Positions 3,798-25,300 of a stretch of 64,000 bases of DNA are shown here, in pieces. How positions within the stretch are numbered: position 1 is the stretch's first letter; every line of letters begins with the position of its first letter. The DNA lies in contig NZ_BSNK01000002.1 of assembly GCF_030159955.1 (NCBI RefSeq), forward strand, positions 186,001-250,000, in the 5' to 3' direction. The stretch comes from Algimonas ampicilliniresistens. Its GTDB lineage: Bacteria; Pseudomonadota; Alphaproteobacteria; Caulobacterales; Maricaulaceae. The translations under genes were made by a program, and so were the position numbers. The notes under the pieces were generated by a model. The model saw nothing but the letters and a program-made list of their open reading frames with translations. It made no database searches and was not told the origin of the DNA.

Positions 3798-3922
3798 TGA
3801 TGGCTGACGCATCCGTGATATGTCCTTCTTGAAATCAAGCTCTGATAATGATTGACGAAGGGTCACAATCTCCCTTTCTGTTGATCGTTGTATGGTGAAA
3901 GCCTAGGTTCCCATCACCTTAT

Positions 3923-3967
3923 GACCGGCTCCCCTGATTAGGACTTGTTCCTTCTTATGAGCCGGTC
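3923..3967 (+). terminator. Inverted repeat after the R-M genes, possible terminator
   Basis: GACCGGCTC at 3923-3931 and GAGCCGGTC at 3959-3967 are perfect 9-base inverted arms separated by 27 bases, both preceded by TTATGA. The downstream tract (TTCTGCCTT) is only weakly T-rich. It may terminate the R-M transcript or be a protein-binding site. The rest of the gap 3798-4145 shows no recognisable gene. Confidence 0.35.
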
Positions 3968-4145
3968 TTCTGCCTTAGTCGCGACACTCGATATGTCGAG
4001 ATCCGCACTGAGATTGAGCTGGATTGTGGGATGGACCTCATGAATGCCTCTCACACCTTCGCCAAATATATTCGGCTATCGTGAAACGCGGGCGCTGTCT
4101 CTGCGGCCGGCTTTACCGAGTTCGTCGGCGGGCATAGTGAGGCCT

Positions 4146-6213: not shown

Positions 6214-6825
6214 ATGACTTTCACGATTGTGCGAACTCTCGCAGCTTCCATCTTCCTTGCGACACTCTCAGTCGCGCCCGTCCAAGCTCAAACGCACGAG
6301 CATCCTGGCCATGACATGCCCGCTTCCGGGATGCCCAAGATGGACCATGGCAAGATGGACCATGGTAGCATGAACCACGATGCCATGATGACGATGTGGG
6401 CCACCCACATGGTCGAGGCCCGCGGTTCTCTGGTCGCGCTGAACCCCGAAACGCGCGAGGCGACCATTCGCCACGATGCGATCCCCGCCGTGTCCTGGCC
6501 CGCCGCACAGATGGTCTTTCCAGTCGGCAACGGGGTTGATTTGAAAACGCTTGCGCCCGGCCAGGCTGTCCAGTTCACCTTGCACCGGGCAGCGGATGGG
6601 AGCCTTCCCCTGGTCGAACTCTGTTCCGCTCAAGGTAACGGCGTCACGCCGGGTCTGTGTGCCTCCGGCATGGATCACGCGACTATGAATCATGGCCAGA
6701 TGGATCATTCGAAAATGGACCATTCGGCAATGCCGCATGGAGCCATGTCGCACGGCGATTCACACGCTTCGGGCACTGACGCAGCGACCCCGTCGAACGC
6801 GCATCGCCACGATGCGAACGAGTAG
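6214..6825 (+). CDS. CusF-like periplasmic copper-binding protein
   Basis: 203 residues with a Sec signal peptide (residues 1 to about 26, ending VQAQ). The CusF-type beta-barrel lies at about residues 66-130: VEARGSLVALNPETREATIRHD, then IPAVSWPAAQMVFPV, where the His, Trp and Met positions match the Cu(I) site of CusF. It is flanked by Met/His-rich tails of repeated MDH, MNH and SMNHD units on both sides. The protein probably carries Cu(I) or Ag(I) in the periplasm to the CusCBA pump or the CopA oxidase. It lies 16 bases before copA. A second CusF-like protein closes the island. Confidence 0.85.
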   Translation: MTFTIVRTLAASIFLATLSVAPVQAQTHEHPGHDMPASGMPKMDHGKMDHGSMNHDAMMTMWATHMVEARGSLVALNPETREATIRHDAIPAVSWPAAQMVFPVGNGVDLKTLAPGQAVQFTLHRAADGSLPLVELCSAQGNGVTPGLCASGMDHATMNHGQMDHSKMDHSAMPHGAMSHGDSHASGTDAATPSNAHRHDANE

Positions 6826-6841: not shown

Positions 6842-8641
6842 ATGACATTCGACAGACGCCATTTCCTTCAAACCTCCCTCGGATCCGCCGCTGCGCTCGG
6901 TGCATCCGGGCTAATGCCGGCCTGGGCGCGGCCCGCATCGATGGGCAATCTGGGCTTGCCCGCGCTCACCGGGACTGACTTTGATCTGACGGTTTCCCAA
7001 TTCCCGATCCGCATCGACGGCCGCGACACGCTGGCGACCGGCGTCAATGGAACCGTGCCTGCGCCACTGATCCGGTTTCGTGAAGACACACCTATTCGTC
7101 TCAACGTCCGCAACGATCTCGATGTTGACACCTCGATCCATTGGCACGGCCTGCTCGTGCCGTTCCATATGGACGGTGTACCCGGCGTCAGCTTTCCTGG
7201 GATCAAGCCCAGGTCCAGCTTCACCTACGAATTCTCGACCCCTCAGAACGGGACTTACTGGTATCATTCCCATTCCGGGCTGCAGGAACAGGTTGGTCAC
7301 TACGGCCCGCTCATCATCGATCCGAAAGGCTCCGATCCGGTTGCCTATGACCGGGAATATGTTCTCATGCTGGGCGACTGGACCTTCACGGACCCGCACC
7401 GGATCTTCGACAAGCTGAAGAAGAATGCGGAGAGCCTGAACTTCAACCAGCCCACGATCGGCAACCCCAAGGGGCTGACCGGGATGTGGGGTGCAATGCG
7501 GATGTCGCCGAACGATCTCGCCGATGTCACGGGCGAGACCTACACTTACGTCATCAACGGCCATTCCACGGCCGACAACTTCAACATGGTCTTCCGGCCC
7601 GGCGAGCGGGTCCGGCTACGGATCATCAATGCCGCCGCCATGACGCTCTTCAACGTCCGGATGCCCGGCCTGCCCATGACGGTCGTCCAAGCCGACGGGC
7701 TGAACGTCCGTCCGATCGAGACCGACGAGTTCCAGATCGGCGTAGCGGAAACCTACGACGTCATCGTCCAACCGACGGAAAGCCAGCCGTTCGCCTTCGT
7801 GGCCGAAAGCATCGACCGGTCCGGCCAGGTCGTCGCCACGCTGGGTCCGCGGCCCGGCATGCGCGCAGCCGAGCCAAGACTGCGGCCCGTCCCCGTTCTC
7901 ACGATGAAAGACATGGGAATGGACCATAGTTCGATGGCCGGTATGTCCGGCATGGATCACGCCAGCATGTCCGGGCGGACAGCGTCAATGGCCGGACACG
8001 CGGCGATGGGCCACGGTCCTGATCCGCATGGGGCGCCCGTCCAACTGCCCCGCGTCGAAGCAAATTTGGAGCGCGGTCCCGGCGTCGTCAACATCGCCGC
8101 CATGCCCATGAGCCGTCTGGACGAGCCCGGCATCGGCCTGGAAGACGTCCCGCATCGCACGCTCACCTACGCCGACCTGCGCAGTCTCGAACCCAACCCC
8201 GACACGCGCGCGCCCGCCCGCGAGGTCGTCGTGCATCTGACGTCCAACATGGAACGCTACATGTGGTCCTTCGACGGCGTGAAGTTCTCGGAAATCACCG
8301 CACCGATCACCTTCATGGAAGGCGAGCGGGTCCGGCTGACCCTGGTCAACAACACCATGATGCCGCATCCGATTCACCTGCATGGAATGTTCTTCGACCT
8401 CGTCAATGGCGGCGGCGATCACATGCCCCGCAAGCACACGGTCGTCGTCAAGCCGGGCGAGAAACTGTCCGCCGACATCTCGGCCGAGCATGTCGGCGAC
8501 TGGGCGTTTCACTGCCACCTCATCTACCACATGCATGCAGGCATGATGCAGGTGGTGACGGTTCAGCCGAACCCTCTCATCGAGCGTAAAGACCGGATCG
8601 ACGCCGCATTGGCGCGCCCCGATGCGGAGACGGCCCCATGA
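6842..8641 (+). CDS. copA: CopA-type multicopper oxidase (periplasmic Cu(I) oxidase)
   Basis: 599 residues. The start at 6842 is chosen because it yields a twin-arginine signal (TFDRRHFLQTSLGSAA), fitting export of a folded copper enzyme; upstream in-frame starts lie within the previous gene. All copper-ligand motifs are seen: HWHG at 100-103, HSHSG soon after, HPIHLHGMFF in the C-terminal domain, and HCHLIYHMHAGMM from 557, giving the T1, T2 and T3 sites. A Met/His-rich segment (MGMDHSSMAGMSGMDH) near 357-375 is typical of copper-resistance oxidases. It oxidises Cu(I) to the less toxic Cu(II). It overlaps copB by 4 bases. Confidence 0.95.
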   Translation: MTFDRRHFLQTSLGSAAALGASGLMPAWARPASMGNLGLPALTGTDFDLTVSQFPIRIDGRDTLATGVNGTVPAPLIRFREDTPIRLNVRNDLDVDTSIHWHGLLVPFHMDGVPGVSFPGIKPRSSFTYEFSTPQNGTYWYHSHSGLQEQVGHYGPLIIDPKGSDPVAYDREYVLMLGDWTFTDPHRIFDKLKKNAESLNFNQPTIGNPKGLTGMWGAMRMSPNDLADVTGETYTYVINGHSTADNFNMVFRPGERVRLRIINAAAMTLFNVRMPGLPMTVVQADGLNVRPIETDEFQIGVAETYDVIVQPTESQPFAFVAESIDRSGQVVATLGPRPGMRAAEPRLRPVPVLTMKDMGMDHSSMAGMSGMDHASMSGRTASMAGHAAMGHGPDPHGAPVQLPRVEANLERGPGVVNIAAMPMSRLDEPGIGLEDVPHRTLTYADLRSLEPNPDTRAPAREVVVHLTSNMERYMWSFDGVKFSEITAPITFMEGERVRLTLVNNTMMPHPIHLHGMFFDLVNGGGDHMPRKHTVVVKPGEKLSADISAEHVGDWAFHCHLIYHMHAGMMQVVTVQPNPLIERKDRIDAALARPDAETAP

Positions 8642-9456
8642 TCCGCCGTGTCGCGTGGGCAGGAGCGACCGTACTGTCGGCGTTCGTTCTCTTGTTTCCC
8701 CTAACCGCGTCCGCGCAGAGTTCCGAAAATCCGGATGACGGCAAGCCTTGGTCCATGGCCGACCGATACTGGGGCGAAGAGGCTATGGCCGAAGCGCGCG
8801 AAGAGGTCATGGCCGCCAACGGCGATCTCAACACCTATATGGTCATGTTTGACCGGCTGGAATGGCAGGACACGGGCGGGGACGGCACGCTGCTCTGGGA
8901 TTTCCAAGGCTGGTATGGCGGCGACATCGACAAGCTCTTCATCAAGAGCGAAGGCGAAGTCTCCTTGGAAGACGACGAGATCGAAGATGCCGAGGTGCAG
9001 GCTCTCTGGTCACGCGCCGTCGCTCCCTTCTGGGACGTACAGGCCGGTCTTCGATACGATCTGGAGCCCAAAGGCCGCACCCATGCGGTTCTCGGCCTTC
9101 AGGGTCTTGCACCTTACTGGTTCGAGGTGGATGCAGCCGCTTTCCTCTCCACGGATGGCGACCTGTCGGCCCGCATCGAAGCCGAATATGAGCTGCGTTT
9201 CTCCCAACGCCTCGTCCTGCAACCTCGCATCGAAGCCAACCTGTCGGCGCGAGACATCCCAGAGCTCGGCATCGGCTCGGGCTTGACCGGGATCGAGCCG
9301 GGCGTGCGTCTCCAATATGAAATCCGACGCACCTTCGCGCCCTACATCGGCGTCGAGTGGCAGAAGCAGTTTGGTGACACGGCAGATTTCACGCGCGCCT
9401 CTGACGAGGATTCCGACAAGATCGTCGGCGTCGTCGGCTTGCGGACCTGGTTCTAG
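8638..9456 (+). CDS. copB: Copper resistance protein B, outer-membrane
   Basis: 272 residues with a signal peptide (residues 1 to about 26, ending ASAQ). The body matches the CopB family: MADRYWGEEAM.EAREEV near the N-terminus, then alternating beta-strands (YMVMFDRLEW, GTLLWDFQGWYG, VQAGLRYDLEPKG) ending with the outer-membrane C-terminal Phe in VVGLRTWF. It is predicted to be an outer-membrane beta-barrel that binds or sequesters copper. The N-terminal Met/His repeat region common in CopB proteins is absent, leaving the metal-rich repeats to CopA and CusF here. Its start overlaps the copA stop by 4 bases, the standard copAB pair. Confidence 0.93.
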   Translation: MIRRVAWAGATVLSAFVLLFPLTASAQSSENPDDGKPWSMADRYWGEEAMAEAREEVMAANGDLNTYMVMFDRLEWQDTGGDGTLLWDFQGWYGGDIDKLFIKSEGEVSLEDDEIEDAEVQALWSRAVAPFWDVQAGLRYDLEPKGRTHAVLGLQGLAPYWFEVDAAAFLSTDGDLSARIEAEYELRFSQRLVLQPRIEANLSARDIPELGIGSGLTGIEPGVRLQYEIRRTFAPYIGVEWQKQFGDTADFTRASDEDSDKIVGVVGLRTWF

Positions 9457-11597: not shown

Positions 11598-11761
11598 CCG
11601 ACAATAAGAAAAGTTGCTGCGCGCCAAAGTCCGACCCGCGCGAAACGGATAGTGAGCCGGAGTCGACGACTGTCTCGACCGAAGCGCCCGCGACGCCCAA
11701 AGACAAGGCCGACTCCAAGCCCAAATCCGGCGGGGGATGCTGCTGCGGACCGACGTCATGA
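11594..11761 (+). CDS. 55-residue Cys-cluster small protein in the copper island
   Basis: A small gene starting at the ATG at 11594, overlapping the acyltransferase stop (ATGA), and ending with TGA at 11759-11761, which overlaps the next gene's ATG. It encodes KKSCCAPK near the N-terminus and GGGCCCGPTS at the C-terminus, separated by a Pro/Ser/Thr/Lys-rich linker without hydrophobic segments. The five Cys in two clusters suggest cytosolic Cu(I) binding, like a small metallochaperone or storage peptide. No family was recognised. Both flanking overlaps and conserved spacing support a real gene; experimental proof is missing. Confidence 0.7.
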   Translation: MTDNKKSCCAPKSDPRETDSEPESTTVSTEAPATPKDKADSKPKSGGGCCCGPTS

Positions 11762-12252
11762 TGCGCCGGCTGGTCATCGCATGTGTTGCCGCCATCGGGC
11801 TTGTCGCCTGTTCGGCTGACCGGAACGCGTCTGAGACCCAAGCCGCGTCCGCGACGGCTCCGACTGTTGCGCATATCACGGTCCACAAGACGCCAACCTG
11901 CGGCTGCTGCACGCAATGGGTCGAGCATGTCGTGGCCGAGGGATTCTCGGTGACGGTGCATGACCATGCAGACCTGACGCCGATCCGGAAACGTCTCGGG
12001 ATCCCGGAACGGTTGGCATCCTGCCATTCTGCGGAAGTGGATGGCTACGCACTGGAAGGCCATGTGCCCGCGAGCGACATCCTTCGTCTCCTTTCTGAAC
12101 GTCCCGACGCGATCGGCCTGTCCGTCCCGGGTATGCCGGCCAGCGCTCCGGGGATGGATATGGAGGGCGTCAAGCAATCCTATGCGACCCTGCTGTTCGA
12201 CGCGGACACCGCGACCGTCTTCACCCGTCATGACGGGGACGCATCCGATTGA
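11758..12252 (+). CDS. DUF411 metal-binding lipoprotein
   Basis: 164 residues from the ATG at 11758. An upstream in-frame ATG at 11737 exists, but 11758 gives a clean lipoprotein signal, MMRRLVIACVAAIGLVAC, with lipobox Cys18. The mature domain matches the DUF411 family, with HKTPTCGCCTQW (a CGCC copper-binding cluster), then CHSAEVDGYALEGHVPA with a conserved Cys-His. DUF411 proteins occur in copper and silver resistance operons and are thought to bind Cu(I) in the periplasm. The stop overlaps the TTG start of the next gene by 3 bases. Confidence 0.88.
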   Translation: MMRRLVIACVAAIGLVACSADRNASETQAASATAPTVAHITVHKTPTCGCCTQWVEHVVAEGFSVTVHDHADLTPIRKRLGIPERLASCHSAEVDGYALEGHVPASDILRLLSERPDAIGLSVPGMPASAPGMDMEGVKQSYATLLFDADTATVFTRHDGDASD

Positions 12253-13220
12253 ACCCTCCAGACGAACATAAGAAAACGGACCAAAAATCTGGCGAGCACA
12301 GCGGCCACGACATGACGGCCATGGGTGCGAACGAACGCGCCTTGAAGATCAGCGCCTTTCTGACGGGGATCTATTTCTTCGTCGAACTCGGTCTCGGCAT
12401 CGCCAGCGGGTCCATCGCCGTGCTCTCTGATGCCTTCCACACGTTCTCGGCTGTAGGCGGTGTTCTGCTCGCTCTGGTCGCCGGGCGGATCGCGGCGCGC
12501 CCGGCCGACCGTCACCGAACCTTCGGATCGTTCCGAGCGGAACTGATCGGGGCACTCCTCAATGGCCTTTTCCTGCTCGGTATGGCCGTCTTCGTCATCT
12601 ATATGGGTATCCGCAGGCTGCTTGATCCGGTCGAGCTTGAATATGGTCTCATGCTCGCCGCCGCCGCGGGCGGTCTCGTGACGGAACTGATTTCACTCTA
12701 CGTCCTGACGCGAGGGTCGCGCGACAATCTCAATATGCGCGGCGCGTTCTGGCACGTCATGCAGACCTTTGTCGGCAGCCTCATCATCATCGTCGCAGCG
12801 GCGGTCGTCTATTTTACGGGTTTCACCCTAATCGATCCAATCCTGGGGACGGCCTTTGGCTTTGTGCTCATCTGGGCGGGCTGGGGCATCACGCGCGATA
12901 CGCTGAACCTGCTCATGGAAACGGTTCCCATCAATGTCGATCTTGAAAAGATTGAAGTCGCCTTGACGGAACTTCCGGGCGTCGAGGATCTGCACCATAT
13001 CCACGCCTGGTCATTGACATCGGACCGCAACCTTTTCTCCGCTCATATCGGAATTTCTGAAACCGCGAACGCGCAGGATGTGATCCGCGCCGCAGAAGCT
13101 GTTCTGACGACGAGTTTTGACTTCTACTTTACGACTTTTCAGGTCGAGCCAGTCGGCAGCCATCCCGTCCGTGCGCGGTCCATCGACTATGTCTGGATGG
13201 ACCGGGAAGATCCGTCATGA
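12249..13220 (+). CDS. Cation diffusion facilitator family transporter with altered transport site
   Basis: 323 residues from a TTG start at 12249, which overlaps the previous stop; a later ATG start at 12312 would keep all domains. Six membrane helices and a cytosolic C-terminal domain (PGVEDLHHIHAWSLTSD) match the CDF family (ZitB/CzcD-like). The canonical zinc site is HxxxD in helices 2 and 5. Here His64 is followed by Ala68 (DAFHTFSA), and His169 is followed by Thr173 (FWHVMQT), so both metal-site Asp residues are missing while both His stay. Specificity may thus be shifted to Cu(I) or another ion, or the protein may have lost transport. Confidence 0.85.
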   Translation: MNPPDEHKKTDQKSGEHSGHDMTAMGANERALKISAFLTGIYFFVELGLGIASGSIAVLSDAFHTFSAVGGVLLALVAGRIAARPADRHRTFGSFRAELIGALLNGLFLLGMAVFVIYMGIRRLLDPVELEYGLMLAAAAGGLVTELISLYVLTRGSRDNLNMRGAFWHVMQTFVGSLIIIVAAAVVYFTGFTLIDPILGTAFGFVLIWAGWGITRDTLNLLMETVPINVDLEKIEVALTELPGVEDLHHIHAWSLTSDRNLFSAHIGISETANAQDVIRAAEAVLTTSFDFYFTTFQVEPVGSHPVRARSIDYVWMDREDPS

Positions 13221-13717
13221 TTGTCGCGGTCATCATTGCCGGTCTGACCTTTGCAGCCACCGCCATCTTGCATCTCGGTGTATTGCACGGGGTCGCGCGA
13301 CGGATCGACGACGCGTTCACGACCGGCCCCCTGCTCTGGGTCGGCACGTTCGGGCTGATCGGACTTCTGCATGTGACGGAGGCCGGTTTCTACGCAGCGG
13401 CTCTGAAGGCTGGTCAAGCCTTGGGACTGGGCGGTTTTGCCAGCGCTGACGGCCAGTCGGGGTGGATGGACACCTACTATTTCGCGCTCGTGAGTTACAC
13501 GTCCCTTGGCCTCGGCGATATCTATCCGACGGGACATCTGCGCCTGATTGCAGGCGTGGCATCGCTCAATGGCTTCCTGCTGATTTCCTGCTCGGCCGCC
13601 CTGCTCTTCCGGATGGTGAGCCGTCCACACTTCAGCTCATCCGAGCAGGCTCCACCGCTTTCCAAAACCCGGTTGCCCCGTGCGGCCCCCTCAGTCCCCG
13701 GCCGTCAACGCCGATGA
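13217..13717 (+). CDS. Ion-channel-like membrane protein (Ion_trans_2-type pore)
   Basis: 166 residues. It overlaps the CDF gene stop by 4 bases. It has hydrophobic segments at about residues 2-22, 37-60 and 102-134. A pore-like loop before the last helix reads DTYYFALVSYTSLGLGDIYPTG, closely resembling two-TM potassium channel filters (TVGYGD-like, here SLGLGD). This suggests a potassium or nonselective cation channel. A channel in a copper operon might rebalance membrane potential or K+ lost under copper stress, which is inference. The Leu in the filter differs from the usual Tyr or Phe, so selectivity may be altered. Confidence 0.7.
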   Translation: MIVAVIIAGLTFAATAILHLGVLHGVARRIDDAFTTGPLLWVGTFGLIGLLHVTEAGFYAAALKAGQALGLGGFASADGQSGWMDTYYFALVSYTSLGLGDIYPTGHLRLIAGVASLNGFLLISCSAALLFRMVSRPHFSSSEQAPPLSKTRLPRAAPSVPGRQRR

Positions 13718-14373: not shown

Positions 14374-15168
14374 ATGAGTATTTCGGAAGAACTCGTGGTG
14401 AATGAGACCGCAAAGGGCCGAAAAGCCATTGTCTACCGGATGGTGATGGCCGACCATGTCTGTCCTTTCGGGCTCAAGACGGTGGATCTGCTGAAACGCA
14501 AGGGGTTCACGGTCGAGGACAATCACCTGACCAGCCGATCTGAGACGGACGCCTTCAAGGAGAAGTGGGGCGTCAAGACGACGCCCCAGACTTTCATCGG
14601 CTCCGAGATAGCGCAGAACCGTATTGGGGGCCATGACGCACTGCGCGAACACTTCGGATATTCGGTCAAAGATCCGAACAAGAAGACCTATACACCGGTA
14701 TTGGTCGTCTTTGCCATCGCCGCCTTGCTCGCCATAGCCGGTGTCTGGGCTCTGACGGGCGGGCTGTCAGCTGTTCTGACCATTGAATGGTTTGTCGCAT
14801 TTTCGATGGCGATGCTCGCCATGTTGAAATTGCGCGATCTGGATGCCTTCTCCAACATATTCCTGAACTATGATGTGCTGGCGCGGCGGGTCGTCCGCTA
14901 TGCCTATATCTATCCGTTCGCGGAAGCCTTTGCCGCCGTTCTCATGGTGGCGGGCGGCGTCTGGGGCCTGATCGCCGCGCCGGTCGCCCTTTTCATCGGC
15001 ACGATCGGTGCCTGGAGCGTGTTCAAGGCCGTCTATATCGACAAGCGCGAGCTGAAATGCGCTTGCACGGGCGGCGGCACGAACGTCCCCCTCGGCTTCG
15101 TCTCCCTGTCCGAAAACCTTGCCATGATGGGCATGGGAATCTGGATGATCGTCAAAGCCGTGATGTGA
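14374..15168 (+). CDS. Glutaredoxin-MauE/DoxX-type fusion membrane protein
   Basis: 264 residues. The N-terminal 90 residues form a glutaredoxin-like domain with the CPFG active site in MADHVCPFGLKTVDLLKRKG and a cis-Pro segment KTTPQTFIGSEIAQNRIGG. The C-terminal part (about 105-264) has four to five membrane helices with DAFSNIFLNYDVLARRVVRYAYIYPFAE and a cytosolic CACTGGGTNVPLG loop, the MauE/DoxX redox-associated pattern. It has a Shine-Dalgarno GGAG 9 bases before the ATG. It probably reduces disulfides, for copper-stressed envelope proteins, or delivers electrons across the membrane; this is inferred. Confidence 0.82.
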   Translation: MSISEELVVNETAKGRKAIVYRMVMADHVCPFGLKTVDLLKRKGFTVEDNHLTSRSETDAFKEKWGVKTTPQTFIGSEIAQNRIGGHDALREHFGYSVKDPNKKTYTPVLVVFAIAALLAIAGVWALTGGLSAVLTIEWFVAFSMAMLAMLKLRDLDAFSNIFLNYDVLARRVVRYAYIYPFAEAFAAVLMVAGGVWGLIAAPVALFIGTIGAWSVFKAVYIDKRELKCACTGGGTNVPLGFVSLSENLAMMGMGIWMIVKAVM

Positions 15169-15203
15169 CGCTGACACCTCATCTCTTGACTAAGGAAAAG
15201 ACC

Positions 15204-15557
15204 ATGAAACGAATGATGACACTCATTGTCGCGCTCACTCTGATGACCGGAATACCGACCCATGCGACAGCCCATACCTCCTTGTCCGCGTCGAATATCG
15301 TCGCGGGATCGGAGGTTTCGCAGGTTCCGGACACGCTCGAGCTGACCTTTGCAAAGGCCGTCGGCCTGGCGGCAGTCGAACTGATGGGGCCTGACGATGA
15401 GACCCGTACGCTTCAGACAGCGAAGACAATGGACAAAGTCCACCGCGTCGCGCTTCCAGCCCTGACGGCTGGCCGATACATCGTAAAATGGCGGGCGGTC
15501 GCCAGTGACGGACACGTCATGAGCGGCGAAATCCCCTTTACGGTCGTCTCCGACTGA
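15204..15557 (+). CDS. copC: CopC periplasmic copper-binding protein
   Basis: 117 residues. The start at 15204 is chosen because it gives a signal peptide ending ATAHTSLSAS, so the mature protein begins with the histidine that is the Cu(II) ligand. The remaining Cu(II) ligand pair is visible in the C-terminal strand DGHVMSGEIPFTVV. The beta-sandwich of CopC is about 95 residues, as here. No Met-rich Cu(I) loop is present, so this is a Cu(II)-only CopC. It precedes copD by one base and the pair probably works together in copper import or handling at the inner membrane. Confidence 0.93.
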   Translation: MKRMMTLIVALTLMTGIPTHATAHTSLSASNIVAGSEVSQVPDTLELTFAKAVGLAAVELMGPDDETRTLQTAKTMDKVHRVALPALTAGRYIVKWRAVASDGHVMSGEIPFTVVSD

Positions 15558-15558
15558 C

Positions 15559-16383
15559 ATGACGGGCAGTCTCGTCATATCGGCCAAGGTTCTTTTTTAT
15601 CTGGGCAGTCTGTTCGGAATCGGAGCGGGTACGCATTACGCGGTCTGGATCGTCCCCTCACGACGGTGGCTTTGGGTCGGAGCCGCGTCCGCCCTTCTCG
15701 CAATCAGCTTTCGGCTGTTGGGACTGAACTTGGAAATGGTCGGCGATCCGGTCCGAATATTCGACTTTTCCATGTTCGGCTGGGTCTGGCCGGGGGTTCG
15801 GGACCAGGTCTTCGCCTTGGTTCTTGGCGCAGGCATATTGGCGATAGCCTCACTGATGCGTCTTCGCTTCGTCGCCTTCATTGGTGCGCTGTGTGTGGCT
15901 CACGGGTTCGGGCTGTCTGGACACGCCCGGAGCGAGGGCATGCCCGACCTGCTCTGGGTGCTCGTCTCGGCGCATGTGCTCTTCGCGGGTTTCTGGTTCG
16001 TCGCACCGCTGACGCTCTGGCCGCGACAGGGACACAATCGGCCGGACGTATCGCGCAGACTCCACGCCTTCAGCCGAATCGCGATCTATGCTGTGCCCGT
16101 GATGATTGTCGCGGGACTTTGGCTGGCTCTGATCATCGCCGACGGGCCCACTGGACTGCTCGGATCGACCTATGGTCGTCTGCTGCTTTTAAAGCTCGTC
16201 GTCATCACCGCTGCCTTGGCGCTTGGCGCCTATAACAAGTTCCGGCTGATGCAACCCATCGATGCGGGCGAGGCCGGCGCCTTCGTCCATCTGCGCCGCT
16301 CGCTTTCGCTCGAATTCACCCTCTTCCTCGCCGCCCTGATCACCATTGCCGCTGCGACGACCCTCTTTGGCCCGCATTCCTAG
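15559..16383 (+). CDS. copD: CopD inner-membrane copper protein
   Basis: 274 residues with about eight membrane helices, beginning with LVISAKVLFYLGSLFGIGAGTHYAVW. The middle carries HGFGLSGHARSEG, with histidines placed as in CopD proteins (VAHGFGLSGHA near 114-124). The gene starts one base after the copC stop, a standard copCD pair. It is thought to move copper, brought by CopC, across the inner membrane for delivery to enzymes; direction is debated in the literature. The length matches the family and no break is seen. Confidence 0.88.
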   Translation: MTGSLVISAKVLFYLGSLFGIGAGTHYAVWIVPSRRWLWVGAASALLAISFRLLGLNLEMVGDPVRIFDFSMFGWVWPGVRDQVFALVLGAGILAIASLMRLRFVAFIGALCVAHGFGLSGHARSEGMPDLLWVLVSAHVLFAGFWFVAPLTLWPRQGHNRPDVSRRLHAFSRIAIYAVPVMIVAGLWLALIIADGPTGLLGSTYGRLLLLKLVVITAALALGAYNKFRLMQPIDAGEAGAFVHLRRSLSLEFTLFLAALITIAAATTLFGPHS

Positions 16384-16917: not shown

Positions 16918-17169
16918 ATGAAGATCGTTCCTCTTGGCTTCACCTTGTGCATCTTTCTCGCCGTGACCTTCACGCTCTGCATGATCTGGGGCCTGCTGAC
17001 GCCCGAGACGCTGCATATGCACACAGCCTGGGAGGGCTGGATGCCGGGCTCTAACTGGTCACTCGGCGGCTATCTCGTCGGGCTGGTCTGGACTGTCGTT
17101 TACGGCTGGTATGCGGCTCTTGTTTTTGCGCCGCTCTATAATTTCTTTCACCGGAAACCACGATCATGA
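16918..17169 (+). CDS. DUF5676 family small membrane protein
   Basis: 83 residues, starting two bases after the previous stop. Two membrane helices (about 8-27 and 51-74) flank a [19 protein letters not shown] segment. The pattern matches DUF5676, a small family recurring next to copper ATPases. The Met, His and Trp in the loop could form a metal site. The stop overlaps the ATPase start by 4 bases (ATGA), pointing to coupling with the copper pump, perhaps as a small subunit. Confidence 0.82.
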
Positions 17170-19385
17170 CGGACGCGCACCCGCATGATCATTGCCATCC
17201 TGATTCCGATCGCGAACCGGCCAAACCCGACGCGGCCTATAATCATGTTCCTGTTGGCTATGACGGAACCGTTTTCACCTGTCCGATGCACCCGCAGGTG
17301 CGAAAGATCGCAAATATAGGATGTCCAATTTGCGGGATGGCACTTGAACCTGAAACCGTCTCCCTCGACACACCTGAGGATACGGCCGAACTGGATGACA
17401 TGACCCGCCGCTTCTGGGTGTCAGCCGCCCTGTCGTTGCCACTCTTTGTTTACGCCATGGGCGATCTCATTCCGGGCCGTCCGCTTGACCGCTTTGTATC
17501 ATCGGACTGGTCGCAATGGACCCAGATTGTTCTCGCCGCTCCCGTCGTTCTGTGGGGCGGCTGGCCTTTCTTTGTGCGCGGCTGGAAATCCGTCGTGACC
17601 CGGCGCCTCAACATGTTCACCCTGATCGCACTCGGTGTTGGCGTCGCCTTTCTCTATTCGCTGATCGCAGTTTTGCTGCCAGAACTGTTCCCGGCCGCTT
17701 TCCGCAATGAAGACGGACAGGTTGCCGTCTATTTCGAGGCGTCCGCGGTCATCACTACGCTCGTCCTGTTGGGACAGGTGCTCGAACTTCGAGCGCGGAG
17801 TCAGACTTCTGGGGCGATCCGCGCCCTTCTGGAGCTGGCCCCGCCGACCGCGCACCGTATCAATGCAGACGGCACCGAGACCGAGATCGCGCTCGAAGAA
17901 GTGAAACTTGGCGACCGCTTGCGCGTCAGACCGGGCGAAAAGGTGCCAGTCGATGGTCAGGTGGCCGAAGGACGGTCCAGCGTGGACGAGTCCATGGTCA
18001 CGGGCGAGCCTATGCCGGTCGCCAAGACGGTCGACGCCAATGTTACCGGCGGCACGGTGAATGCGACCGGTAGTCTTGTCATCGAGGCGACGCGGATCGG
18101 CGAGGATACGATACTGTCCCAGATCGTACGCATGGTCGCCGAAGCGCAGCGGTCGCGCGCGCCGATCCAGAAGCTGGTCGATACAGTATCGGCCTATTTT
18201 GTACCGGCCGTGCTGGTTATCGCCGTCGTGACATTCATCGTATGGAGTCTATACGGCCCGGAACCGGCCATGGCATTCGCCACGGTCAACGCGGTCGCCG
18301 TCCTGATCATCGCCTGCCCCTGCGCATTGGGCCTCGCCACGCCCATGTCGATCATGGTCGGCACGGGCAAAGGCGCGCAAAACGGTATTCTGATAAAGAA
18401 TGCCGAAGCGCTGGAAACGATGGAAAAAGTCACGACCGTCGTGGTGGACAAGACCGGCACGCTCACCCAAGGACGCCCCGAGCTGGTCAAGGTCGAACCC
18501 GCTGCACCTTTTGACGAAATGAACCTGCTTGCCCATGTCGCTGCCGTTGAAAAGGCAAGCGAACATCCGCTGGCCGAGTCCATCGTCCGGGGAGCGGCCG
18601 AGCGGGAGATCAAGGCGCTCAACGCGGTCGATTTCCGATCCGTAACGGGCGAAGGGGCCGAGGGTAAAGTCGGGGGTCGGTCCGTCGCCATCGGTAATGA
18701 CAAGATGATGCGCCGGGTCGGCGCTCACGATACGGATCTCGCGACGTCCGCCGAGCAGTTCCGGAAGGACGGCCAGACCGTCATGTTCGTCTCCATCGAT
18801 GGCAAGCCAGCCGGGCTGATCGGCGTCACGGACCCGATCAAGGCCACGACACCAGACGCCATCAATCAGCTGCATCGTAGTGGCTTGAAGGTCGTCATGC
18901 TGACCGGCGACAGCGCGGGCACGGCCCATGCCGTGGCGAACAAGATCGGGATTGATGATATCTACGCCGATGTCTCGCCAGAGGACAAGAACCGGATCGT
19001 CCGCGAGTTGCAGCAAGCCGGAGAGATCGTCGCCATGGCCGGAGACGGGATCAACGATGCCCCCGCCTTGGCACAGGCAGATGTGGGGATCGCCATGGGG
19101 ACCGGAACCGATGTCGCCATGGAAAGCGCGGGCGTGACGCTGATCCGCGGCGACATTCTGGGAATTGCGCAGGCCCGCACTCTGAGCCGGGCCACCATGC
19201 GCAACATTCGTCAGAACCTGTTCTTCGCTTTCATCTACAACTCTCTGGGTGTCCCGGTCGCAGCGGGCGTACTCTATCCGGCCTTCGGACTGCTGCTCAG
19301 CCCGATGATCGCTGCGGCGGCGATGAGCCTGTCATCCGTGTCCGTCATCGCGAACGCCCTGCGTTTGCGTAGTGCGGATCTGTAG
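17166..19385 (+). CDS. copA: Copper-translocating P1B-type ATPase
   Basis: 739 residues. A His-rich N-terminus ([13 protein letters not shown]) leads to a heavy-metal-binding ribbon domain (FTCPMHPQV, then [10 protein letters not shown], about 38-61) instead of the classical HMA domains. The P1B ATPase core is complete: CPC motif Cys384-Pro-Cys386 in [13 protein letters not shown], phosphorylation Asp428 in [19 protein letters not shown], and [20 protein letters not shown]. It exports Cu(I) from the cytosol to the periplasm. The gene overlaps DUF5676 and is followed 10 bases later by the RND pump genes. Note that the name CopA is also used for the multicopper oxidase upstream. Confidence 0.95.
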
Positions 19386-19395
19386 GACCACGCCG

Positions 19396-20664
19396 ATGTT
19401 CATCCGAATGATTGCACGTCCCCCTCACGCCCTTCGTTCCCTTGGGGCGCTTCTGATAGGCTTGATGCCCCTGTCCGCGATGGCTCAAGACCCTGTCTAT
19501 AGTTTGACCGAACTCGAAGAGATGCTGCGTCTGCATCCTAGCCTGGAAGCCTATGGTCTGCGGGCGGATGCCCAACGGGAACGGGCCGAGGCCGAGACCG
19601 CCCTGCCCGACCCGGAAGTGACGATGGGTCTGAACAATTTCCCGGTCTTCGATCCCTCCTTCACCGAGTATCTGCCGACCAACAAATCGATCGGCGTGCG
19701 TCAGCGCTTTCCAAACCTCTCAGGCCGTGAGGCCGCGCGCGATGAAATCCTGGCCAATGCCGGACAGTTGGAGGCGGCTCGCGCGGCCCGCCTCGCCGAA
19801 CTTCGGGCGGAGATGTTCGGCCAGATGCTCATCCTCGACAAGGTCGCCGACCAGATCATTCTCCTCGACGCCCGAAACGCCAAATATGATGAACTGGACG
19901 AGGTCTATCTGGCCGAAGTCGATGCGGGCAGTCCGTCCCTGTTCAGGCTCGCGGAAATCGAAGGAGAACGAGCCGATCTAGAGCGGACCCGTGTCGGGCT
20001 GGTGTCAGAACGTAGCAGCGCGGAGGCGCGTCTTCGCGACCTTCTGGGCACTGTCCCGGATGGCATAGACATTACGCCGGAGCTTGTCGTGTGGAGCGGT
20101 CAGGCCAATGCGTTTCATACCGTGCGGATCGCGCAGGAAAGCGTCGAGGTCGCCGATGCGCGCATCGACCGCGCGGAGGCCGCGTTCAAGCCAGATTGGG
20201 GCGCACAGGCCACTTATCAGCAACGCGAAAACGGGACGAACTTCGATGGTGATGATTGGGTCAGCTTCGGAGTCACGCTCAGCGTTCCGCTCTGGTCGGG
20301 CCGAAAGCAGGAACCGAGGCTGCGCGCGGCAAAAACCGATCGCTCGGCGGCTCTTACAGATGTCCATGCCGCTGCCCGGTCCGCTTTGTCGCAATATGAG
20401 GCGCTGGATGCGCAGCGCAAGGCCGCACAAGAATCGATCCTTGTCCTCGGAGACAGAAAACGCGCCATTGCACAGGTCATGGAAGACCGCTTGGTCGTCT
20501 ATGAATCGGGCGCTGGAGGCTATGCCCCCATCATTGATGGCGAGATCGCTCTTCTCACTCTGGACTATCAGGTCCGAGCCGAACAGGCGCGGGCCGACAT
20601 CGCGACCGTTCGCATGAACGGGCTACTCGTCATCCCCCTTGATCAAACTGGAGCCCAGCCATGA
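19396..20664 (+). CDS. cusC: CusC-like TolC-family outer-membrane channel
   Basis: 422 residues. The ATG at 19396 is preferred over one at 19372 that lies inside the ATPase gene. A signal peptide ends AMAQDPVYS. Two repeated halves of long amphipathic helices with LEAYGLRADAQRERAEAETALPDPEV and later a SVEVADARIDRAEAAFKPDWG segment fit the TolC fold. It should form the outer-membrane duct of the copper/silver tripartite pump with the two next genes. Its stop overlaps the adaptor start by 4 bases. Confidence 0.9.
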   Translation: MFIRMIARPPHALRSLGALLIGLMPLSAMAQDPVYSLTELEEMLRLHPSLEAYGLRADAQRERAEAETALPDPEVTMGLNNFPVFDPSFTEYLPTNKSIGVRQRFPNLSGREAARDEILANAGQLEAARAARLAELRAEMFGQMLILDKVADQIILLDARNAKYDELDEVYLAEVDAGSPSLFRLAEIEGERADLERTRVGLVSERSSAEARLRDLLGTVPDGIDITPELVVWSGQANAFHTVRIAQESVEVADARIDRAEAAFKPDWGAQATYQQRENGTNFDGDDWVSFGVTLSVPLWSGRKQEPRLRAAKTDRSAALTDVHAAARSALSQYEALDAQRKAAQESILVLGDRKRAIAQVMEDRLVVYESGAGGYAPIIDGEIALLTLDYQVRAEQARADIATVRMNGLLVIPLDQTGAQP

Positions 20665-22385
20665 GCCCGCGACAATTCCTGCCTTGGCTCGCCTTGGGCC
20701 TGGTCGCCTGTGGTAATCCCGGCGTTGGTGACAGACCCACTACTGTCGAGACCGTATCCGCTAACGCGAGCTCCGAAGAGCCTCGCCTTTACACCTGCCC
20801 CATGCATCCGCACTATATCAGCGAAGACCCAGACGGCACCTGTCCGATCTGCGGCATGGACCTGGTTCCGGCGGAAACCCAATTGGCATCGCTGGGCGAT
20901 GGCAGCGTTGCCGTCTCACCCGAAATGATCCAGTCGCTGGGCATCCGCACGGCGCCCGCGACCCAGACCGATTTTTCCCGAACCCTGCGAGCCTATGGAA
21001 CCGTCGAAGCCGACGAAAGCCTGCAGACGTCAGAAGCGTCACGCTTGGAAGGCTGGATTTCCGATCTGCGCGTACGCGCCGTCGGCGATCCGGTCCGAAA
21101 AGGCCAGTTCCTCTACCGCATCTACAGCCCCGAACTTGTCGGTGCGCAGAAGGATCTGCTCAACTCCCTGCGCATCGGCAATCCGCGCCGAATTGAGGCC
21201 GTGCGCCAGCGTCTCCGCTCTCTGGGCATGCAACCCGGCACGATCGACCGGGTCGTGGAGTCCGGCGAGACGATTGAACGTGTGCCGATCTACGCCGAAA
21301 GCGCGGGCATCGTGTCAGGGATCATGGTCTCCAACGGGGCCTATGTGAAACCTGGAGCGCCCATTCTGGACCTGCAGGATTTCGGTTCCGTTTGGGTGAT
21401 CGCCCGTCTGCCGGAAGGCGATCTGCCACTTGTCCGGCCCGGCCTTCCGGTCCGATTGAGCTTCCCCAGCGCCCCGGACGCCAACGGAGAAGGCGAAGTT
21501 AACTATATCTATCCGACGATCGACCCGGTCACGCGCACGGCGCAGCTCCGCGTCAGTCTGACGAACAGCACCGGTTCTTTGCGACCCGGTGCTTATGCCG
21601 ATATCGACTTCGAGGTGGAACGAGACATCAAGCTGTCTGTTCCCGCTCCATCCATTCTTCGTGATGGGAACGTATCCTACGTGGTTGTCAGCCTCGGCGA
21701 GGGCCGGTTTGCGGCTCGCCCTGTTATGACGGGTGAAACGAACGCTGGCCGGACGGCGATCCTCTCCGGGCTGCAGGACGGGGATAGCGTCGTTATCAAC
21801 GGACAGTTCCTGCTCGGCAGCGAAGCCAACCTCCGCGAAGGGTTCGCCCGGCTCGGACCCGCCCTTGGTCCGGATACACCCCTGTCCGATTTACCCATCG
21901 ACGCGGACACGCTGGCTCAGATTGATCATTTTGTGGACCAGGCGCTCTATTTTCACGAGGCCTTGACCGACGGGTACAGGATTGATCCCTATTTCGTGGA
22001 TCCAGCTCTATCGGTCGTCGAGCCTCTTCGCGCCAGGTTCGGGTCGACGGGCCTCGGCACGGTTTTGACGGACGTAGACGCCGCCCTGCGAGCTGCGAAA
22101 GCCGCCCCGGACGCTAACGCGCTTCGCGTGGCGCTGGCCGCCCTGATGGAAGGATTGAAGCCTTGGCTCCTAGACGGCGCGTCGGCGAGCTACGATAATC
22201 GCGGGCTGGTCCTGTTTTCCGATGACGCAACAGGGCAACTCTGGCTTCAGCAGTCGGCTACGCCCGCCAATCCCTACGGCGGTGGGGCTGTCACGATCAT
22301 TCCCTGGCCGGAGCCAATGTCGATGGCGCCTGAGCCAGCCTCTCGGCGCGAACCAGCCGATCCGCATTCGGGGCATCGCCACTAA
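20661..22385 (+). CDS. cusB: CusB-like RND periplasmic adaptor
   Basis: 574 residues. The signal ends WLALGLVACGNPG, so it is probably a lipoprotein. A heavy-metal-binding ribbon (YTCPMHPHYISEDPDGTC, then CPICGMDLVP) lies at about 44-73, like the one in the ATPase. The adaptor body follows, with barrel-sandwich and beta-barrel segments (about 95-380). A C-terminal extension (about 410-555), ending with SATPANPYGGGA, resembles the DUF3347 copper-binding domain, making it longer than a typical CusB. It links the RND pump to the channel and hands Cu(I) to the pump. It overlaps cusA by one base. Confidence 0.92.
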   Translation: MSPRQFLPWLALGLVACGNPGVGDRPTTVETVSANASSEEPRLYTCPMHPHYISEDPDGTCPICGMDLVPAETQLASLGDGSVAVSPEMIQSLGIRTAPATQTDFSRTLRAYGTVEADESLQTSEASRLEGWISDLRVRAVGDPVRKGQFLYRIYSPELVGAQKDLLNSLRIGNPRRIEAVRQRLRSLGMQPGTIDRVVESGETIERVPIYAESAGIVSGIMVSNGAYVKPGAPILDLQDFGSVWVIARLPEGDLPLVRPGLPVRLSFPSAPDANGEGEVNYIYPTIDPVTRTAQLRVSLTNSTGSLRPGAYADIDFEVERDIKLSVPAPSILRDGNVSYVVVSLGEGRFAARPVMTGETNAGRTAILSGLQDGDSVVINGQFLLGSEANLREGFARLGPALGPDTPLSDLPIDADTLAQIDHFVDQALYFHEALTDGYRIDPYFVDPALSVVEPLRARFGSTGLGTVLTDVDAALRAAKAAPDANALRVALAALMEGLKPWLLDGASASYDNRGLVLFSDDATGQLWLQQSATPANPYGGGAVTIIPWPEPMSMAPEPASRREPADPHSGHRH

Positions 22386-25300
22386 TGTCCGACGTCCAAA
22401 ACCTTGCCGGACATGATCCGTCAAAAAGCGCCGTTGCGCGCCTGATCGGCTGGTCGGTCGCAAACCCGCTGATTGTTCTGGTTCTCAGCCTCGCCCTCGG
22501 CGTCGCGGGCTGGATGGCCGCGCTCGATACACCGCTAGACGCCGTGCCGGACCTGACCGACACGCAGGTCATCATCCGGACGGACTTTCCCGGCCAAAGC
22601 CCGCAAGTGGTCGAAGACCTCGTCACCTATCCCCTCTCCTCCGCCTTGCTTGGACTGCCGGGAACCGAGGATGTCCGCGCCAGTTCCATGTTCGGAACAA
22701 GCTTCGTCACCATTGTCTTTCAGGATGATGTCGATCTCTATTGGGCGCGCTCACGCGTGCTGGAAGCCCTGTCACGTCTCGGCGGCAGTCTTCCCGAAGG
22801 GGCTGTGCCGGAAATCGGGCCCGACGCGACCGGTGTGGGCTGGGTCTATCAATATGCCCTCGTGGACCGAACCGGAACGACGGATCTTGCCGATCTCCGG
22901 GCGTTGCAGGACTTCTTCGTCAGCTTGGAACTTTCCAGCGTCGAAGGCGTGGCCGAGGTGGCCAGCGTCGGCGGGTTCCAGCGCGAATATCAGGTTCTGG
23001 TGGATCCGAACCGATTGCGGGCGTTGGGCGTGAGCCTCGACAAAGTCGCCGACACGATCCGAATGGCGTCCCTGGAAGTGGGCGGACGCGTCATCGAAAG
23101 CGGGGAGACCGAATATGTCTTGAAGACGGATGGTTATGTAACGAATGTAGATCAACTGGCCGATACCGTTGTCTTTGCCGGCGGCGGCGCACCGGTCCGT
23201 TTGCGCGATCTTGGCCGTGTCATCGAAGGTCCGGCGCTTCGACGCGGGGTTGTCGAGCTGAACGGCGAAGGCGAAACCGTCGCGGGTATCGTCGTCATGC
23301 GCGACGGCGAGAACGCGCTGGAGGTCATCGAGCGGATAAAGGACCGTCTTGAAGAAGTCAGCCGCGGACTGCCGGACGGCGTCGAGATCGTGACCGTCTA
23401 TGACCGCGCTCCTCTGATCGAAGGCTCTGTCGATTATCTGCGCCACAAGCTCATCGAGGAAGCGATCGCCGTGGCCCTCGTCATCCTCCTCTTCCTGCTT
23501 CACATCCGCGCCTCGCTTGTCGCGTTGATCACTTTGCCCCTCGGCGTCTTGGGGGCGTTCGTCATCATGAACGCACAAGGCGTCACCGCGAACATCATGT
23601 CGCTGGGCGGGATCGCCATTGCCATCGGGGCCATGGTGGATGCCTCCATTGTCTTGGTCGAGAACGCTGCCCGAAAACTGTCAGAACATCCCGGCAAACC
23701 GAAAGGGGCGCAGCGTCGAGAGGTTCTGCTGGCGGCCGCGCAGGAAGTAGGCCCCGGAATCTTCTTTTCGCTGCTGATCATCACAGTCAGCTTCCTGCCC
23801 GTCTTCGCCCTGACCGGGGAGAGCTACCGCCTCTTCAGTCCCCTCGCCTTCACCAAGACCTATGCCATGGCCTTCGCAGCCGCCCTGTCTGTGACTCTGG
23901 TCCCGGTTCTCATGCTACTGCTCATGCGCGGGCGCTTCATCCAAGAACGCAAGCACCCGTTGATGCGCGTGCTGATCTGGCTCTACACGCCTGCCTTGCG
24001 CGGCGCTCTGAGATTGAGGTGGTTCGTCGTCCTGATTGCCCTGTTGACAACGGCCAGTCTGGTCATCCCGCTGCGCAAGCTCGGCACGGAATTCATGCCG
24101 GCGCTCTATGAAGGCGAACTCCTCTATATGCCGACAACCCTGCCCGGCGTGTCCGAAACTAAAATGCGGGAATTGCTGGGACAGACCAACCGCATGATCG
24201 CCACGGTCCCGGAGGTGGAGCGCGTGTTCGGCAAGGCAGGCCGCGCCGATACGGCGACCGACCCGGCCCCGCTGTCCATGATCGAGACTTGGATCCAGCT
24301 CAAGCCGAAGAACGAATGGCGGCCCGGCATAGATGCCGAGGGCATCATCGCCGAACTGGACAGCCGCCTGCAGATCCCGGGCTTGGTCAATAGCTGGGGC
24401 TATCCCATCAAGATCCGCATGGATATGGTCAGCACGGGTGTCCGGACCCCGATCGGAGTCAAGATCACAGGGGATGAGCTGTCCACGCTCGAAAGGCTTT
24501 CCCGCGAGGCTGAGACAATTATCGCCGACATTCCAGGAACACGCTCGGCCTTTGCAGACCGTGTGCTGGGCGGAAAGTATCTCGAAATCATCCCCAACCG
24601 GGAAGCCTTGGCCCGCCGGGGCATTTCCATGGCGGCCTTCCAGTCGGTCGTACGCACAGCTCTGGGGGGGCAGGTCCTGAGCCAAAGCGTTCAGGGACGG
24701 GAACGCTACGACATTCTGCTCCGCTACGCGCCGGAATACCGAAACAGCCCCGATGCTATAGGCATGGCGCTTGTTCCCGCGCCAAGTGGTGCTGTTGTAA
24801 CACTCTCTGATGTGGCCACCATTCGTTTCGCCGAAGGCCCGCCGATGATCCGGTCGGAGAATGCGCGACTGACAGGATGGGTCTTCGTGGACTTCGAAAA
24901 CCGCGATCTGGGCGGATATGTCCAAGACCTGAGACAAACTCTGGCACGCGATCTTGCGCTTCCACCCGGATATGCCGTGGCGATTTCCGGTCAGTTTGAA
25001 CAGTTGGAGGAAGCTAGGGACCGGCTGAGCCTGGCGATACCCGCTGCCATCGCCCTCGTCTTCCTATTGCTGATGCTCCATTTCGGACGGCTCGACCGGA
25101 CCCTCATTGTCATGCTGTCCGTACCCTTCGGATTGATCGGCGGTCTGTGGGCGGTCTGGCTCGCAGGATACAACCTGTCCGTCGCCGTGGCTGTTGGTTT
25201 TATCGCGCTCGGCGGTATTGCCGTGGAGACGGCCGTCATCATGCTGCTCTACATCGACAGCGAGGTCCGCACGCGGATGCCCGAAGACCGGGATGCCTTA

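Follow-up and report, generated by a model that had tools for sequence, protein, structure and literature searches.

The cation diffusion facilitator (CDF) gene described here lies in a 64,000-nucleotide stretch of the Algimonas ampicilliniresistens genome (assembly GCF_030159955.1, contig NZ_BSNK01000002.1, positions 186,001 to 250,000), called the window, and its product has lost both aspartates of the canonical transport site (site A). The same losses are found in all relatives read, which apparently constitute a distinct CDF subfamily of single origin with the signature H-A on transmembrane helix (TM) 2, M on TM3, E on TM4 and H-T on TM5. The copper link of the variant CDF is general and extends beyond the window. 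Site conservation and gene neighborhood suggest, at slightly less than even confidence, that the subfamily is a working copper-handling antiporter that probably exports Cu(I).

A CDF transporter with an altered site A

The window gene and its product were examined with profile searches, alignments and a structure model. The CDF superfamily profile TIGR01297 scores 238 bits against a cut-off of 82 with a match that spans both domains, and the ZitB model NF002923 scores 167 bits against a cut-off of 408, which places the protein below the ZitB equivalog level. An AlphaFold2 model (39 sequences, pLDDT 87.4) predicts six long TM helices followed by the usual CDF tail with α-β-β-α-β order. These matches point to a bona fide member of the CDF transporter family. 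The gene, its domains and the residues at issue are as follows, all on the + strand.

12249..13220, +, CDF transporter gene of the variant subfamily (open frame, 323 aa, TTG start)
12342..12917, +, Cation_efflux transmembrane domain, residues 32-223 (PF01545, 125 bits, E = 5e-36)
12429..12431, +, TM2 Asp61, kept (aligns with SLC30A1 residue 40)
12438..12452, +, TM2 motif HTFSA, residues 64-68, with A68 in place of the site-A Asp (alignment with ZitB D57)
12582..12584, +, TM3 Met112, invariant in variants and mostly not Met in other CDF rows
12603..12605, +, TM3 Met119, in place of Glu (Glu in 28 of 35 other CDF rows)
12684..12686, +, TM4 Glu146, in place of the conserved Asn (ZitB N135 and SLC30A1 N127 positions)
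12753..12767, +, TM5 motif HVMQT, residues 169-173, with T173 in place of the site-A Asp (alignment with ZitB D163)
12777..12779, +, TM5 Ser177, kept (aligns with ZitB S167 and, by coordinates, SLC30A10 residue 252)
12936..13151, +, ZT_dimer cytoplasmic domain, residues 230-301 (PF16916, 44 bits, E = 2e-11)

Alignment with the Escherichia coli K-12 proteins equates window H64, A68, H169 and T173 with ZitB H53, D57, H159 and D163, and the same four positions with FieF D45, D49, H153 and D157. An earlier note on this DNA had read HTFSA (His64/Ala68) and HVMQT (His169/Thr173) at the two HxxxD positions, and the alignments bear it out: the two Asp columns hold Ala and Thr. The note also held that all other features of the CDF fold are intact. 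This is true of the fold, which is recognized by PF01545, PF16916 and TIGR01297, but not of two further positions, where Glu119 has become Met (TM3) and Asn146 has become Glu (TM4). Among 35 other CDF rows, a set in which ZitB and FieF are each counted twice and some rows are partial, Asp occupies position 68 in 33 and position 173 in 34, and Asn occupies position 146 in 30. Met112 and Met119 of the variants both lie on TM3, about two turns apart. In the C-terminal domain, H252 and H266 are present in 63/63 variants and 30/33 ordinary CDF rows.

The site-A quartet of the Zn-CDF group is His-Asp on TM2 and His-Asp on TM5; the window protein and 86/86 relatives read HA and HT. Papers cited here by PMC number are quoted from excerpts. 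HA-HT is absent from the site-A quartets given in section 8 of PMC5703985 (ND-DD, DD-DD, DD-HD, EN-HD and HH-DH), and the excerpt describes clades 13, 14, 17 and 18 as hard to assign.

The variant defines a conserved subfamily

Relatives were collected from plasmids and genomes. A plasmid search returned 1595 records with some match, and the six loci read encode proteins 52-57% identical to the window protein, all six with both Asp losses. One variant gene, DSHI_RS20340, lies on pDSHI03 of Dinoroseobacter shibae DFL 12, and a match with equal score and identity at NC_009955 167863-168792 may represent a second copy. A genome scan with the peptide patterns GA[LFY]WH[IV][IM]Q and [DN][VAL]HH[VI]HAW gave 569 matching stretches, and a relative is encoded in 528 of them; these patterns bias the scan towards W168-H169-Q172, and relatives without Q172 may be missed. 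The best 80 of the 528 genome relatives and the six plasmid loci make up the 86 relative loci. At each locus the row most like the window protein was taken, so that the choice was by similarity and not by motif. D61, H64, A68, M112, M119, E146, W168, H169, Q172, T173 and S177 are present in 86/86 of these loci. A count on rows picked by motif (H64, A68 and T173) gave 92/92 and is partly circular; 86/86 is the similarity-picked recount. The double Asp loss is beyond chance because A68 and T173 occur in every relative, compared with the Asp-rich columns of other CDF rows.

Removal of loci with CDFs at least 90% alike left 62 variant loci. The mutual identity of these dereplicated variants extends down to 46% (median 57%), and all of them, with the window protein, keep the signature; retention at this depth indicates strong selection on the site. 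The 62 variants are 50-64% identical to the window protein, and 28 ordinary CDF rows are 27-37% identical to it. In a tree of 39 variants and 34 others (73 rows, 71 different; a quick method, with some long rows among the others), the variants form one clade with SH-aLRT (Shimodaira-Hasegawa-like approximate likelihood ratio test) support of 100 on a long stem of 3.03. They join 19 ordinary rows, including ZitB, in a weak fork (80, drawn open). No intermediate occurs among the relatives read, which come from a scan whose pattern favored Q172. The subfamily is found in 3/142 genomes of an evenly drawn class sample and 4/398 genomes of an evenly drawn phylum sample (limit 1e-45), with the window genome counted in both, and the viral contigs searched hold no relative.

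Two explanations were rejected: a lone mutation or sequencing error, because the change is common to 86/86 relatives, and a dead gene as the general explanation, because the site residues are invariant. A single variant copy, in locus L094 (genome G305), looks frame-shifted after TM6, through either assembly error or decay.

The variant CDF does not replace the ordinary CDF in its hosts. Fourteen variant-bearing genomes were searched and have 2-8 CDF matches each, with at least one further CDF in all 14. Among the 29 non-variant rows read in variant-bearing genomes (30 loci), the quartet is HD-HD, DD-HD or EN-HD in 26. Three further CDFs are encoded in the window's own genome, and one of these reads HD-HD. 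A second CDF row lies within the variant locus itself in only 4/86 cases (L056, L080, L081 and L083).

Several other CDF genes were observed along the way. L056 carries the variant and an ordinary HD/D/HD CDF about 6 kb apart (3335-4360 and 10492-11442), a possible natural pair. Another CDF type of variant-bearing genomes, which aligns with HD in TM2 and Glu-Ala in TM5, occurs at L189:1438-2418 and L192:1195-2148 and perhaps also does without the TM5 Asp. About 9 kb upstream of the window, L004 (G000:C2:176183-176707) encodes a short CDF of about 225 aa that has no C-terminal domain and adjoins an apparent heavy-metal P-type ATPase gene. Six variant-bearing genomes hold frames that match CDFs and are 205-214 aa long, known by length only.

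Copper genes accompany the variant CDF

The neighborhoods of the variants were compared with those of ordinary CDF genes at 40 control loci, each about 19 kb long and six of them shortened by contig ends. Among the 44 CDF rows of these controls, 37 read HD/N/HD or HD/N/ED and none reads HA/E/HT. A strict list of copper markers was used, consisting of CusF, multicopper oxidase, CopB, DUF411, CopC, CopD, copper-type P1B ATPase and CueR. A marker lies within about 9 kb of the CDF gene at 43/62 dereplicated variant loci and 1/40 control loci (Fisher p = 1.2e-12; 62/86 variant loci before dereplication). When only loci longer than 12 kb are counted, the values are 36/46 and 1/38, and two or more markers are present at 17/62 variant loci versus 1/40 controls. 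The earlier note had proposed this co-occurrence check, and the association holds well beyond the window.

Copper-type P1B ATPases are found at 32/62 variant loci versus 0/40 controls, and zinc-type enzymes at 0/62 versus 1/40. A P1B ATPase gene lies within 400 bases on the same strand at 22/62 variant loci. The P1B and MerR types were assigned by matching them against CopA/ZntA and CueR/ZntR of E. coli. Most of the markers were drawn from the window and its relatives, which favors the variants; the ATPase result rests on the E. coli queries. Three candidate markers were left out of the strict list: the CusB-type adaptor, which fails to tell variants from controls (9/62 versus 8/40), and DUF305 and YcnI, which have no match in either the 62 variant or the 40 control loci. 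The RND pump was never a marker and occurs at 9/62 variant and 9/40 control loci.

An artefact of the genomes chosen was considered as the source of the copper link and rejected, as a marker is near only 4/25 ordinary CDF loci taken from 13 variant-bearing genomes (p = 9e-6 against the dereplicated variants). Within the same 13 genomes, a copper marker accompanies 9/13 variant loci and 4/25 ordinary CDF loci (p = 0.003). Four of four further variant loci from outside the set carry copper markers; a fifth, L225, turned out to be L056 again and is unmarked. Markers are found near 22/35 alphaproteobacterial and 9/12 gammaproteobacterial dereplicated loci. Nine records are from other groups or loosely named, and six of them have a copper ATPase, including one from Peregrinibacteria; some labels of metagenome-assembled genomes (archaeon, Chloroflexi, Acidobacteria) may be binning errors.

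Neighbor families in the 86 loci were identified by a profile scan of representatives from 20 clusters. The clusters include EamA (31 loci), two-component kinase (23), multicopper oxidase (20), VTT (20), response regulator (18), three P1B ATPase clusters (18, 13 and 11), DUF411 (16) and MerR (15), and the one MerR member tested passes the CueR cut-off. EamA/DMT-type transporters are near the variant at 23/62 dereplicated loci versus 0/40 controls; the EamA loci include L008, L024, L026 and L029, with a further example at L060:10713-11636. VTT-domain membrane proteins are near 13/62 versus 0/40 (e.g., L048:14204-14929). A small ion-channel-like gene is present at 11/86 loci, 6/62 after dereplication, and 0/40 controls; examples are window 13217-13717, L228:6315-6752, L007:7315-7752 and L045:5267-5776.

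One published expression result touches on these loci. In the excerpted proteomics of Tritonibacter (PMC6308992), the plasmid CzcD PEPIB2_31 was detected only in zinc. Gene order indicates that PEPIB2_31 is probably the ordinary CDF PEPIB2_RS21655 and not the variant PEPIB2_RS22415, and the result therefore counts neither for nor against a copper role.

A proposed rebuilding of the metal site

The site-A Asp pair is treated as essential in most CDFs, and ZitB mutants in either residue are listed as having lost function (PMC1868760). The tabulated mutants are D57A, N135A, D163A/E and S167A, assigned to ZitB by residue number since the column heads fall outside the excerpt. Glu146 of the window protein aligns with ZitB N135. 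From the loss of function of D57A, D163A/E and N135A, the combination found in the variants should be dead unless the site has been rebuilt.

Structural work on SLC30A10 suggests where the new ligands may lie. The Mn2+ site in the SLC30A10 structure consists of D40, N127, D248 and S252 in the excerpt of a review (PMC13272668). Window positions 61, 64, 68 and 146 align with SLC30A1 positions 40, 43, 47 and 127, and we infer that these last proteins, SLC30A1 and SLC30A10, are numbered alike at positions 40 and 127. Window residues 158-197 match SLC30A10 residues 233-272 at equal length (E = 0.05 for the fragment, 7e-25 for the whole protein); if this match is ungapped, T173 is SLC30A10 residue 248 and S177 is residue 252, by coordinates only. 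The net change in the variants is the loss of two site-A Asp and the TM3 Glu and the gain of a TM4 Glu, with D61 and S177 kept. Judged from these alignments, the site is rebuilt rather than left with two His only, and the TM4 Glu is predicted to compensate at a reported ligand position.

The plain two-His site of the earlier note is not retained because an acidic residue, E146, has been gained on TM4 at an SLC30A10 metal-ligand position and D61 and S177 are kept. That note had named functional Asp residues at another position of an alignment as evidence against its view. If this is read as acidic residues, it applies in part, as E146 is acidic on TM4 and D61 and S177 of the SLC30A10-type alternative site are kept. 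The altered metal choice that it suggested fits the strict conservation of the variant site; its two-His wording is not supported, and its interpretation as a whole is upheld in part. The regulatory role that it offered as an alternative is disfavored by the invariance of H64, E146 and H169.

Proposed function and alternatives

The favored reading is an active, proton-coupled exporter. Its substrate site would consist of H64 (TM2), H169 (TM5) and E146 (TM4), with D61 and S177 nearby, and would stand in for the two-His-two-Asp Zn2+ site. With two Asp and E119 lost and one Glu gained, the site would carry less negative charge and might suit a monovalent ion; by this reasoning, Cu(I) would be the likeliest substrate. 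Antiport of Na+(Li+,K+) against H+ has been reported for MceT, a CDF that reads YS-QD at this site (PMC6440370), and hence altered CDF site residues can bring monovalent transport. Alongside the copper P1B ATPase, and with the periplasmic oxidase and CopB genes, the variant would carry Cu(I) from the cytosol into the periplasm. The more specific claim, that this widespread subfamily is a dedicated proton-driven Cu(I) exporter that has abandoned both Asp for a new two-His and TM4-Glu site, is put forward tentatively, with perhaps more doubt than belief.

Several observations weigh against a Cu(I) exporter. Its chief weakness is E146, since Cu(I) is seldom bound by a hard ligand such as Glu. The TM2 and TM5 site positions also hold no Cys or Met, unlike many Cu(I) sites. 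Other CDFs that keep the whole quartet can have Glu at or beside the same TM4 column (HD/E/HD, 6/26 control rows; one residue off in another alignment), so E146 alone is not diagnostic. No copper marker was found at 19/62 dereplicated loci, including 10/46 longer than 12 kb. CueR is rare (2/62), and ZntR-like regulators are present at 5/62. The first marker list, which included the CusB-type adaptor and used a stricter ATPase pattern, gave a smaller difference of 38/62 versus 8/40 (p = 4e-5). The EamA and VTT neighbors are not known as copper movers. The names of many hosts point to marine or saline settings, where a Na+/K+ role like that of MceT would fit as well.

A divalent exporter, for Zn2+ or for Cu2+/Co2+/Ni2+, in which E146, D61 and S177/T173 replace the lost Asp, is unlikely but has points in its favor. 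Its ligand positions would be those of the SLC30A10 Mn2+ site, other CDFs carry an acidic residue at or beside the TM4 position with the quartet intact (HD/D/HD and HD/E/HD), and the annotation of ZitB gives Zn, Cd, Ni and Cu as its exported metals. The copper neighborhood would then arise because copper stress displaces zinc or because islands gather mixed metal genes, and the five loci with a ZntR-like regulator fit this explanation. The ATPases argue the other way, with the zinc type near none of the 62 variants and the copper type near 32, as do the further CDFs in all 14 variant-bearing genomes searched. Somewhat less probable is transport of another monovalent or copper-linked substrate, namely Na+/K+ as in MceT, Ag+ or a copper complex. 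Na+ and K+ come into play because MceT is reported to move Na+, Li+ and K+ against H+; this protein, from a halophile, is reported to need Q150, S158 and D184 (PMC6440370), and S177 and D196 of the variant resemble S158 and D184 by position in TM5 and TM6. A neighborhood in which copper genes stand among those for EamA, VTT and ion-channel proteins would also suit such a substrate. MceT, however, has Tyr and Gln at the site-A His positions where the variants keep both His invariantly, the conservation of H252 and H266 in variants and ordinary rows alike points to a transition metal, and copper markers are near most variants.

A non-transporting subunit or sensor, in which a dead-site CDF pairs with an ordinary CDF or a copper ATPase in the manner of ZnT6 with ZnT5 in animals, is improbable. 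The site-A motif is gone from ZnT6, which is not itself a transporter (PMC10932157), and Zrg17-like proteins read TxxxS/T in TM5 (PMC1868760), in both cases as excerpted; the ATPase gene within 400 bases at 22/62 loci could supply a partner. Against this, ZnT6 and Zrg17 are described as having lost the whole motif, whereas the variants keep H64, H169, E146, D61 and S177 invariantly, and a second CDF row at so few variant loci leaves little sign of a CDF partner nearby.

A clade that has dropped both Asp, kept the His pair, moved the acidic residue to another helix and become established in copper clusters is a natural experiment on ion choice by this fold. The bacterial cytosol-to-periplasm copper step is usually credited to P1B ATPases. 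If the variant is a copper exporter, it would add a proton-driven pump as a second way, besides the ATPases, of clearing copper from the cytosol, and new names would be needed for genes whose annotation is that of a generic or zinc/cobalt/cadmium CDF pump. If the exported ion is Cu(I), it would be a new substrate class for the CDF fold.

The copper cluster of the window

The variant gene of the window is embedded in a run of copper genes on the + strand. Its start overlaps the stop of the DUF411 gene as TTGA, and its end overlaps the start of the next gene as ATGA. The neighboring genes are as follows.

6214..6825, +, CusF-domain protein (PF11604, 62 bits)
6842..8641, +, CopA-type multicopper oxidase (TIGR01480, 735 bits, cut-off 479); the open reading frame opens at 6692 and the start was placed by eye at the twin-arginine signal
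8638..9456, +, CopB (PF05275, 298 bits)
11737..12252, +, DUF411 protein gene directly upstream of the variant CDF, overlapping (PF04214, 85 bits)
13217..13717, +, Ion_trans_2 channel-like gene directly downstream of the variant CDF, overlapping (PF07885, 40 bits)
15057..15557, +, CopC (PF04234, 74 bits); open reading frame coordinates, true start probably later
15559..16383, +, CopD-like membrane protein (NF033808, 68 bits, below cut-off 195)
17166..19385, +, copper-type P1B ATPase (TIGR01511, 600 bits, cut-off 397)
20661..22385, +, CusB-like adaptor (PF16576, 216 bits; NF007303, 142 bits, below cut-off 390)
22385..25558, +, CusA/CzcA-family RND pump (TIGR00914, 1070 bits, cut-off 701)

Just upstream of the cluster, window 1276-3797 holds what looks like a restriction-modification pair, in which a gene with a methyltransferase domain precedes one for a XamI-type restriction endonuclease. 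On the opposite strand, window 26407-32226 (-) is a 1939-aa open frame with matches of the calcium-binding-repeat type, all below curated cut-offs.

Comparison with known systems

Among the open-access titles and abstract openings listed in literature searches, none names Asp-less bacterial CDFs or a copper-dedicated CDF, and an earlier mention is possible. Copper does appear in work on other CDFs. In the excerpts, AtMTP11 and ShMTP8, which have another site, transport Mn2+ and Cu2+ (PMC10932157), Cu2+ is given as a possible CDF substrate (PMC10302677), and no copper-specific CDF is reported in Haloferax mediterranei (PMC9240420). Marine plasmids carry copper genes or CDFs (PMC12016528 and PMC13386836), and the excerpts of these two papers do not describe the variant.

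The ZitB-type Zn-CDFs share with the variants the fold, the domain order, the site-A His pair, the TM1 Glu, the Asp three residues before the TM2 His, the TM5 Ser and the TM6 Asp. The variants differ from them in the absence of both site-A Asp, the TM4 Asn to Glu and TM3 Glu to Met replacements, and a Gly-Gly after the TM2 motif. The D40, N127 and S252 positions of the Mn2+ exporter SLC30A10 (ZnT10) correspond to variant D61, E146 and S177. SLC30A10 keeps the site-A Asp (NxxxD and HxxxD in the excerpted description) and the TM4 Asn, whereas the variant has Thr at 248 and Glu at 127. MceT of Planococcus dechangensis, from the proposed Na-CDF group, shares the altered TM2 and TM5 residues, which in its case go with a change of substrate to monovalent ions. 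Its YS-QD quartet retains the TM5 Asp and has no His, in contrast to HA-HT when the published residues are compared, and the Na-CDF site residues given in the excerpt (Tyr44, Gln150 and Asp154, with S48 variable) are replaced in the variant by H64, H169 and T173. The partner subunits ZnT6 and Zrg17 resemble the variants in having lost the consensus quartet. In their excerpted descriptions the whole motif is lost or reads TxxxS/T, whereas both site-A His residues, whose loss would mark a silent partner, are invariant in the subfamily (H64 and H169 in 86/86 relatives). Finally, the copper P1B-1 ATPases (CopA) and the Cue/Cop/Cus systems share with the variants their gene clusters and the presumed removal of copper from the cytosol. 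The P1B-1 ATPases belong to a different family and are driven by ATP, whereas CDFs generally use the proton gradient.

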